A DNA stretch of 64,000 nt from Nitzschia sp. pyKryTriq1. Its lineage: Eukaryota; Bacillariophyta; Bacillariophyceae; Bacillariales; Bacillariaceae. Made by a program: the position numbers and the translations under genes. Positions 11,757-37,280 of the stretch are shown here, in pieces. The notes beneath the pieces were generated by a model. That model was not told where the DNA came from. It did not search any database and saw only the letters and a list, made by a program, of their open reading frames with translations. How positions within the stretch are numbered: the stretch's first letter is position 1; each line of letters begins with the position of its first letter. Location: assembly GCA_956465555.1 (NCBI GenBank), contig OY101115.1:2356001-2420000 (forward strand). Direction: 5' to 3'.

Positions 11757-11880
11757 TCAAGAGCTGCCAATGTTATACTTCGTTCAACAGTCAAACATTT
11801 CGCAAATTGTTGCTAGAGAGAGTGGAAGGGCTCAAACGAACATACTACTCGCATGATCGTGCGATACCATATCCACTCTA

Positions 11881-34182: not shown

Positions 34183-34825
34183 TCTTTTGTAATGATTGCC
34201 CTTTTCCCAAGCTCGTTAAAGCGACTACGTCTTATAGTTGTATGAAGCTGGACAAGAACACTGCGGTACCGGTACGTAAGTGTGAGGTGATCAGTGATGA
34301 TGTGTGAGATGTGTGCCATGGTGCCATCTGGAGAAATATAGAAATCAAAGATCGAAACGGGCGAATGAAGGACGCCAAAAAGTCACCGTCCGGACCAATG
34401 CCAGACACTCTGCATCCATCGGCTGACGCACAGACTAGTTTTTGGGTCCTTTTAGGGGATTTTTAAGGGGACCAATGCACGAGGTAGTCGACAAGAATGA
34501 TTGAAAGTGTAAATTGTGAGCTAGAAATGAATTGTTATTTTGGAACTACTTGTTTCAAAATCAATTGTTGAGAAAAGATATTGCGCTGACTTGGCGAAAT
34601 ATTAGTCTTGCATGACTTTCACATGGTTGACCAGATGAATCTATTTCATGTGGTGTGAATCTCATTTTATGTGGTGAGCTATTTTCGGTGCCTGTTTGGC
34701 AGTTGTAGTCTAGTACATAGACTTGTAGTTTCTGTTGAGTCTTTGCAACGGACGGGGGCCAGTCGTACGTCGCGCGTCTCACACGCACCGGAGTCATTAC
34801 GGGCCGACCATGTCATCGACTGGTC
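34183..34825. other. Intergenic
   Basis: No gene seen. GCGGTACCGGTACG near 34262 is one of the GTAC palindromes. The left end should be the TIM50 promoter. Confidence 0.4.
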
Positions 34826-35432
34826 GTGGCTAGGGCGTCTGCGCATGCACGGCGCGCACTAGCGTGGAAGATCCTTCAGGACATTATCTACCGACAACGG
34901 GCAGACTATGGTCGTACGAGTCGCGTAGACCGTGTGTGTATTGCAATGGAATATTTTGTGAATTATCCACGAATGATTGATGAAGGATCTTCCGAGGAAT
35001 TCTACCAAGATTGGCAAAATGTGCTGGTACAGAAGCCCACAATCGGGCCAGGAAGAAAGAAAGTGGCAGCATCTGACTATTAGCCACCACGCCTGTGCCT
35101 CCCACTGTACCCCCCGTACCTGCCACTACCACCACGGCACCATCAGTCCCGACTCCAGCACCTACTACTACTACAACAACAACCAAAAAATGATGCAGTG
35201 ATGCCCAGATGGAATATTTTGTGAATTATCCACGAATGATTGATGAGGGATCTTCCGAGGAATTCTACCGAGATTGGCGAAATGTGCTGGTACAGAAGCC
35301 CACAATCGGGCCACGAAGAAAGAAAGTGGCAGCATCTGACTATTATGTCAGACCCAGTGCTGTTTGGCTTCCCCATCTCATTATTGATTATTTGTTGTGT
35401 TGTTGTCGTTACCACATGAAAGTTATGGAAGT
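34826..35432 (+). pseudogene. Decayed coding region with an internal 135-bp direct duplication
   Basis: A module of about 137 bp occurs twice in direct orientation, at 34949-35085 and 35210-35346, with a few changes. It starts at GGAATATTTTGTGAATTATC. Both translate in phase as MEYFVNYPRMIDEGSSEEFY and KPTIGP-RKKVAASDY, so it was coding. Between the copies, a different frame gives a Thr/Pro-rich stretch (ATTPVPPTVPPVPATTTT) ending in KK and a stop. The frames do not join without a shift or intron. I do not recognise the protein. It looks like an eroded gene or transposon part. Confidence 0.45.
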
Positions 35433-35640
35433 ATTACTAGCGCTATCGCGTGAATGAATGTACAACAATGTCTATTACTAGCGCTATCGCGTGCTCGAAT
35501 GTACAACAATGTCTATTACTAGCGCTATCGCGTGAATGAATGTACAACAATGTCTATTACTAGCGCTAGCGCGTGGATAAAAATAAAATAATGTCTATCA
35601 CTAGAGAGCGCTTTCGCGTGCTCGAATGTACTCGCATACA
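35433..35640. repeat. 41-bp minisatellite with AGCGCT core
   Basis: Five copies start at 35433, 35474, 35515, 35556 and 35597 (41-bp period). The unit is ATTACTAGCGCTATCGCGTG, then AATGAATGTACAACAATGTCT. Copies alternate GAATGAATG and CTCGAATG. The last two copies are more diverged. It ends about 300 bp upstream of the DsbA-like start codon. Confidence 0.92.
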
Positions 35641-35942: not shown

Positions 35943-36933
35943 ATGTTCAGTTCAAAGCTCACACGTGGTGCATTGAACGCATTGGCGCGAGAGAGATCAA
36001 TGCTATCGATGAGATCATTGTCGTCATCCTCAAGCAGCAGCCCTCTTGTGATCCCCGTCGAACTCATTTCGGATACTCTGTGACCTAACGGTTACATCGG
36101 GAAAAAACATCTGAATAGGGCCATCGAACAGGTCCTCAGAGATCCACTTCCTGGTGCGCCCCGTCCGATTGCTTTCTCGGTACTTCGTGTACCCTTTTTT
36201 CTGGAACCGTCGTATAGCGAGGACAAACCGTACATTGAACGTAACAGGGACCGCCTCGAAAAGAAGTGGGGCGGTAAACAGGGCTGGGAAGAACAAAAGC
36301 ATCGACATGATCTCAAGGGACGAGGACTCGAAGCAGGAATTCCCCACTTCAATCTCGATCGATTGGCTGCAAACACAATGGCTTCACATAGATTGATTCA
36401 GAACATTGGGAAGCGATATGGATTGTTTGCATCAGAAGCCGTTTACGACTGTCTCAATGAGTAAGTATCGTACCTTGTATTCGTTCCCGCCTGGTTGGTG
36501 ATGCGACCATCTTACCTGTTCTTTCCTCCAACATTCAAAAAGATATTACTTCGTAGAAGGGCATTCACTAAATGATCGTCCACGCCTTGCTGGGGTAGTA
36601 GCTGAATTACTTTCAAACTTGCTGGGACCAGAAGAGACCACCCCGACCGATAACGAGCTGCTCGAGTTCCTCAATGGCAATGAAGGACGAGAAGAGATCA
36701 TGAAAGCCTTACAGGCGCTCAATAAACTTGGAATTCATTCTATCCCCAAATTCATCATTGAAGGAAAAACGATTGTGGATGGTGCTGCACGTCCGGAAGT
36801 ATTTGTGCAAGTGTTCCGGGATATCGAGAGGAAAGGAGAAATCCATGCAGGGCCTTTCTTTGGTGACATCCTTGGGGTACCTGATGATATTATTGTCCGA
36901 GGAAGCCATACTCCAGAAAGCATTGCAGTCTAA
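35943..36933 (+). CDS. DsbA/FrnE-like thioredoxin-fold protein with in-frame UGA (candidate selenoprotein)
   Basis: Exons 35943-36460 and 36543-36933 join over an 82-nt phase-2 intron (GA|GTAAGT ... AAAAAG|A). The total is 302 residues if UGA at 36081-36083 is read as Sec. The leader (MFSSKLTRGALNALARERSM) looks mitochondrial. The domain starts VIPVELISDTL, then UGA, then PNGYIGKKHLNRAIEQV. Homologues of the FrnE/DsbA family have SDTVCPWCYIGKK here, so UGA replaces the first active-site Cys and Gly replaces the second. Exon 1 stays open and family-like for another 126 codons, and exon 2 holds the cis-Pro loop (LGIHSIPKFIIEG). Nothing else is broken. A SECIS-like stem-loop lies 70 nt after the stop. 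Confidence 0.78.
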
Positions 36934-37280
36934 TCGGGTTTTTCAACAAATTTGGACGACCGAGGGACTCCACTTTAGACAAGGGACGGCAAGGTACTCA
37001 GAATGACAGCTTGGTCCAGATGTGCTGTGTCACATGCACTTGTGGATTAACGCTTGATATGAGCTTTCACCGTTTTGGTACTTACTTGGTAGAGACCCCC
37101 GAGTCGTCAGTTCTAAAATGAGAGACTTTCAATCTACGAATACTCTATGCGTAGGATCAATGGATGATTCTATGATCAACTTTTAATCAGCATTATAAAA
37201 TCTATCAGTATCATATGTAATCATGCACCTCATTCATATTATGCATGCGGTAAGCCTTGACAATAATCCGTGTGTTTGGT
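36934..37280. other. Intergenic between convergent genes; contains the SECIS-like element
   Basis: 3' UTR of the DsbA-like gene followed by the 3' flank of the ankyrin gene on the other strand. Apart from the stem-loop at 37003-37058 nothing further was seen. Confidence 0.4.
37003..37058 (+). promoter_or_regulatory. SECIS-like stem-loop in the DsbA-like 3' UTR
   Basis: ATGAC (37003-37007) is followed by AGCTTGGTCC, and GGATTAACGCT is followed by TGAT (37055-37058). The two arms form ten base pairs, two of them G.U, with one bulged C. TGA opposite TGA gives the SECIS quartet. Above lie AG, then ATGTG-CTGTGT-CACAT as an apical mini-stem, as in type II SECIS elements. The usual unpaired AA is AG here, and the 3' internal loop is larger than normal. 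The quartet flanks match the selenoprotein S element in this window (both start AUGAC). Judged by eye only. Confidence 0.55.

Follow-up and report, generated by a model that had tools for sequence, protein, structure and literature searches.

The class of selenocysteine (Sec)-containing DsbA/FrnE proteins is not new, having already been reported from algae (PMC7539508, PMC6627142), and Sec-DsbA is described from both algae and marine invertebrates (PMC7539508, PMC3473315, PMC2874816). As characterized in the available parts of these sources, Sec-DsbA proteins would resemble the gene analyzed here in three features, each of them probable in our gene: a DsbA-type thioredoxin fold, the use of Sec for the upstream Cys and the presence of a SECIS element in the 3'UTR. 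Compared by description, however, their active site is U(or C)XXC (PMC2874816), whereas that of our gene is UXXG and lacks a resolving Cys. The Sec-FrnE of PMC6627142, likewise compared by its description in the available part of the paper, shares with our candidate the FrnE-like family, Sec and a eukaryotic algal host, but was reported from Mamiellophyceae, whereas ours derives from a diatom. In the accessible portion of PMC2375036, the 2007 selenoprotein list of Thalassiosira pseudonana does not name DsbA, and the term 'UxxG' is absent from the main text of PMC7539508. With high confidence, we interpret the present locus from its sequence as a nuclear diatom gene for a divergent FrnE/DsbA-like thioredoxin-fold selenoprotein, in which the UGA at positions 36081-36083 would be read as Sec. 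The predicted single-selenol site, with no partner Cys, would set it apart from the Sec-DsbA proteins described.

The genome searched comprised 40.65 Mb in 20 contigs, and the gene lies within a 64-kb stretch of contig OY101115.1 (hereafter the window, to which the positions of the gene refer). On the + strand, a single frame joins exon 1 (35943-36460) to exon 2 (36543-36933) and runs through 302 codons to a TAA stop (36931-36933). According to the translation and the FrnE alignment, exon 1 encodes a Ser-rich N-terminal leader, which may be a targeting peptide, followed by a FrnE/DsbA-like domain that includes the in-frame UGA; exon 2 encodes the C-terminal part, with the cis-Pro motif SIP. 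The 82-nt intron (36461-36542, + strand; GTAAGT...AAAAAG) was inferred from the frame and the GT...AG splice consensus, and splits the codon GA|A. The preliminary description had given the UGA at 36081-36083 as the sole break in a two-exon frame, and the translation agrees: this TGA is codon 47, and no further stop or frameshift occurs before 36931. Judged by a codon-usage score, the + frame was the best of six, and free of stops, in exon 2 as well as in the portion of exon 1 beyond the TGA. The 46 codons ahead of the TGA ranked only third of the six frames, and this lack of a clear coding signature would favor a true stop, with either a 46-residue product or a protein begun past the UGA and a meaningless frame upstream. 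However, residues 36-46, including an SD motif, align with FrnE and with both paralogues (see below) right up to the active site, and a product begun past the UGA would be devoid of its nucleophile; we accordingly consider a true stop to be highly improbable. If the UGA is instead read as Sec, gene finders of the ordinary kind would be expected to cut the gene at its active site. On its upstream side the gene adjoins a tandem repeat (35432-35604; 41-bp unit, 4.2 copies, 89% matches), and two stretches with similar peptides (MIDEGSSEEFY..DW.NVLVQKPTIGP), likely a local duplication, are located at ~34739-35457.

The family assignment was examined by a phmmer search against the PDB, which matched residues 36-266 to FrnE (5cp1 and 5cnw; E ~4e-5) and aligned the UGA residue with the first Cys of SDxxCPWCYIGK. 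In the preliminary description the UGA had been placed at the first Cys of a FrnE/DsbA CPWC motif; the FrnE alignment confirms the position, but the motif itself is UPNG (within SDTLUPNGYIGK), in which the codon GGT at 36090-36092 (+ strand) encodes Gly50 where the aligned relatives have their second (resolving) Cys. A two-residue redox site of the form CXXC or UXXC is thus absent, and the only Cys elsewhere in the protein is C170. The two FrnE structures align with it across the CPWC region and the cis-Pro motif but, in contrast, have Cys at both active-site positions. Because the site is UPNG without a second Cys, we describe the protein as FrnE-like and not as a classical FrnE. Its SIP aligns with the VP of FrnE and of the paralogues, that is, with the cis-Pro motif, which faces the active site in FrnE/DsbA thiol oxidoreductases, and in the alignment with the paralogues the other invariant positions are also kept.

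The Pfam DSBA model scored 23.4 bits on the whole protein, just below its cut-off of 25.6, and 20.7 bits on exon 2 alone; exon 1 alone matched no Pfam family at E values up to 1, and NCBIfam gave nothing below E 0.15 for the protein. A profile search that included both paralogues reached 3.9e-32, a score driven by those paralogues. At least 491 relatives were confirmed in a contig scan, and CPWC was present in 80/80 of the best 80 of these at least 491, which are bacterial; the count is biased, as Cys-Pro-[NWF]-[CG] was demanded by one of the two patterns used for searching. In a scan of viral contigs, 6 stretches matched, with no relatives among them.

The DSBA family had four matches in the genome: exon 2 of the candidate itself, one match without a TGA (L015) and two (L013 and L014) with one TGA each, at the catalytic Cys. 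The TGA of the latter two stands at the same residue as in the candidate and gives UPFC in L013 and UPWC in L014; like the candidate, both carry a GAATGAC box in the 3'UTR. They differ from it in that the second Cys is kept, where the candidate has Gly, and in having AA at spacing 9 in the hairpin, where the candidate has CC at the same spacing. Our gene would thus add a third Sec-containing FrnE/DsbA-like gene to a single algal genome. Since one base separates TGA from the Cys codons TGC and TGT, an assembly or sequencing error in a Cys codon might also be proposed; such an error would leave unexplained both the identical UGA position in two paralogues and the selenoprotein-type box in the 3'UTR, and we assign it very little probability. 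A decaying FrnE-like pseudogene with an already degraded active site, in which the UGA is a nonsense mutation, would fit the replacement of the second catalytic Cys by Gly, the high divergence (26% identity to L014 and 27% to L013) and the Pfam score just short of the cut-off. The 302 codons, however, contain no other stop or frameshift, the splice consensus is intact, the cis-Pro and other invariant positions have been retained, and a GAATGAC hairpin follows the gene; moreover, TGA is the only stop and falls on the single codon at which Sec would be expected, a position where two paralogues have it as well. We therefore regard a pseudogene as unlikely, if somewhat less so than a true stop or a sequencing error.

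Other families of the genome also contained TGA codons. In total, 12 TGA-containing matches from six families were obtained, of which 8 were accepted as selenoproteins (L013, L014, L019, L022, L023, L024, L055 and L064) and 4 were set aside. The accepted genes, each with its UGA at a Cys position, are the two FrnE-like paralogues, SelT (TGA giving CASU), three glutathione peroxidases (GPx; TGA in 3/4 matches of the genome), a thioredoxin (Trx)-like gene (TGA giving GUGYC) and SelM (one TGA); names such as SelT follow the Pfam family and are presumptive. On visual inspection, L018 (3 TGA), L056 and the PMSR matches in L066 and L067 were classed as introns or as unclear, and a search with PF13911 yielded no TGA-containing match. 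As for the Sec machinery, three tRNA-Sec genes with a TCA anticodon scored above the Rfam cut-off (G000:C4:2830576-2830822 and C5:2573652-2573737), two of which form a tandem pair whose start positions differ by 161 nt; SepSecS was found, and the model of the fourth domain of eEFSec had a match above its cut-off. From this gene content, the genome is predicted to be able to make selenoproteins. The same genome includes a plastid-like contig of 123.5 kb, which encodes PsaL. Among the best 60 of 82 PDB matches to this PsaL, the chains 8xls, 8zeh, 6l4u and 6ly5 scored highest (291-263 bits; 204 for the next), and at least 8xls, 6l4u and 6ly5 are structures of diatom photosystem I.

We then examined the hairpin downstream of the candidate. 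A SECIS-like stem-loop with a ten-pair helix had been described at 37003-37058; its location, quartet and ministem were confirmed, and the helix has 11 pairs with one bulged C. With its GAATGAC box, which begins at +67 from the stop, the element occupies 37001-37058 on the + strand (67-124 nt into the 3'UTR) and comprises the non-Watson-Crick quartet AUGAC/UUGAU, helix II, CC at spacing 9, the ministem and the closing TGAT. The fold was only moderately better than those of shuffled sequences (z -2.2; 6/200 shuffles as good). The apical loop is without the usual unpaired AA and has the CC in its place, which is paired in the MFE fold and stands where L013 and L014 have AA. The available part of PMC2874816 describes a rare CC form of SECIS, one example being the Sec-DsbA from Ciona savignyi, a sea squirt.

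According to the available text of PMC2375036, a strict SECIS filter demands NTGA followed by AA or CC 10-13 nt on. The candidate fails this filter, as do 8/9 other elements of this genome: the AA/CC spacing is 9 in L013 and L014 (AA in both), 8 in L019, 7 in L022 and 6-7 in L055, and L023, L024 and L064 have no AA/CC at spacing 6-14. The filter was passed by a SelS-like gene of the window alone (AA at spacing 10; see below), and 9/10 elements examined would be missed. Rfam reported no SECIS in the candidate region, and Rfam SECIS_1 had no match in the whole genome (133/718 first-look candidates scored); these null results were treated as uninformative because clear selenoproteins were also without a SECIS_1 match. 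The spacings suggest that SECIS elements of this lineage depart from the published arrangement, which would affect automatic selenoprotein annotation; since the 10-13 nt filter misses nine of ten elements, counts of selenoproteins in algae of this kind may be too low, provided that a class of short-helix elements truly exists.

An earlier AA-centred scan of 3'UTRs gave no convincing set, and it was by folding and reading the UTRs that a shared GAATGA box was found. This box occurs 63-126 nt past the stop in 8/9 other selenoprotein 3'UTRs examined (7/8 of the accepted genes, plus SelS); L055 has none in that interval. Its background frequency per 200 nt was 0.092 across the window and 0.098 across Trx loci, and that of the longer GAATGAC was 0.012-0.023. 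We ranked candidates by a simple score based on the 5' box, the 3' box and the helix energy, with training on the eight accepted genes and the candidate excluded. On both strands of the window (128 kb), the scan returned 350 candidates, among which the hairpin of our gene ranked 4th (score 24.1); ranks 2 and 3 were presumed to be chance. The top candidate, at 11760 on the minus strand, lies 122 nt past the stop of a SelS/VIMP-like gene (12742-11881, minus strand; TGA 11901-11899, stop TAG 11883-11881). The SelS-like protein has a hydrophobic N-terminal stretch, a charged middle and the C-terminal sequence NGGGURRPGC, and scored 20.9 bits with Pfam Selenoprotein_S, below the cut-off of 29.8. 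Its hairpin (~11760-11714, minus strand) is a canonical SECIS with GAATGAC and TGAA. This gene was not known when the scan was trained, and is a useful unplanned positive control; the available part of PMC7539508 lists SELENOS with the Sec proteins of most restricted distribution in algae.

When the score was retrained on nine genes, with SelS added, the candidate hairpin obtained 24.3. Scores of at least 24 then occurred five times over both strands of the window (128 kb), including the candidate and SelS, and twice in 194 kb of Trx loci. As Cys-type controls, we used 30/61 Trx matches, of which 2 were dropped for want of an in-frame stop. Among the remaining 28, which include copies or fragments of a single gene and in which the 'UTR' begins at the first in-frame stop with introns ignored, one scored above the candidate (L054, 27.5 versus 24.3) and the next best reached 16.5. 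The hairpin of L054, a gene whose stop is TGA, was presumed to reflect chance. In leave-one-out tests, each known gene's top score fell between 16.6 and 29.5 (nine genes, range limits included), and the assigned site was the best in 7/9, the best site of L022 and L055 being a different one.

Taken together, the UGA on the catalytic Cys, the two UGA-containing paralogues, the Sec machinery and the hairpin with the shared box make a selenoprotein by far the best reading, and the preliminary proposal of a candidate selenoprotein is upheld on these grounds; the gene very probably encodes a real one. In a possible mechanism, the hairpin at ~37001-37058 would recruit SBP2 and eEFSec with Sec-tRNA, and the UGA would then be decoded as Sec via the SECIS pathway. 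The resulting single selenol, with C170 as the only other Cys, would work without a second active-site Cys: the selenolate may attack a disulfide or a peroxide, and an external thiol, for example glutathione, may then free it, which would make the protein a reductase, isomerase or peroxidase-type enzyme, in contrast to a classical CXXC oxidase. The upstream Cys of DsbA can catalyze exchange without the downstream Cys, according to earlier work cited in the available text of PMC2874816. A Sec active site without a partner Cys would allow single-selenol chemistry to be tested in a DsbA fold. The combined proposal of a working single-selenol FrnE-like enzyme (UPNG) with no resolving Cys and of a short-helix class of diatom SECIS, defined by GAAUGA with AA/CC only 7-10 nt on or with no AA, is put forward tentatively, as something that may well prove incorrect. 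Finally, 377 nt separate the UGA from the exon junction downstream of it, so that, under the general rules of nonsense-mediated decay, the transcript may be sensitive to this decay when selenium is short.
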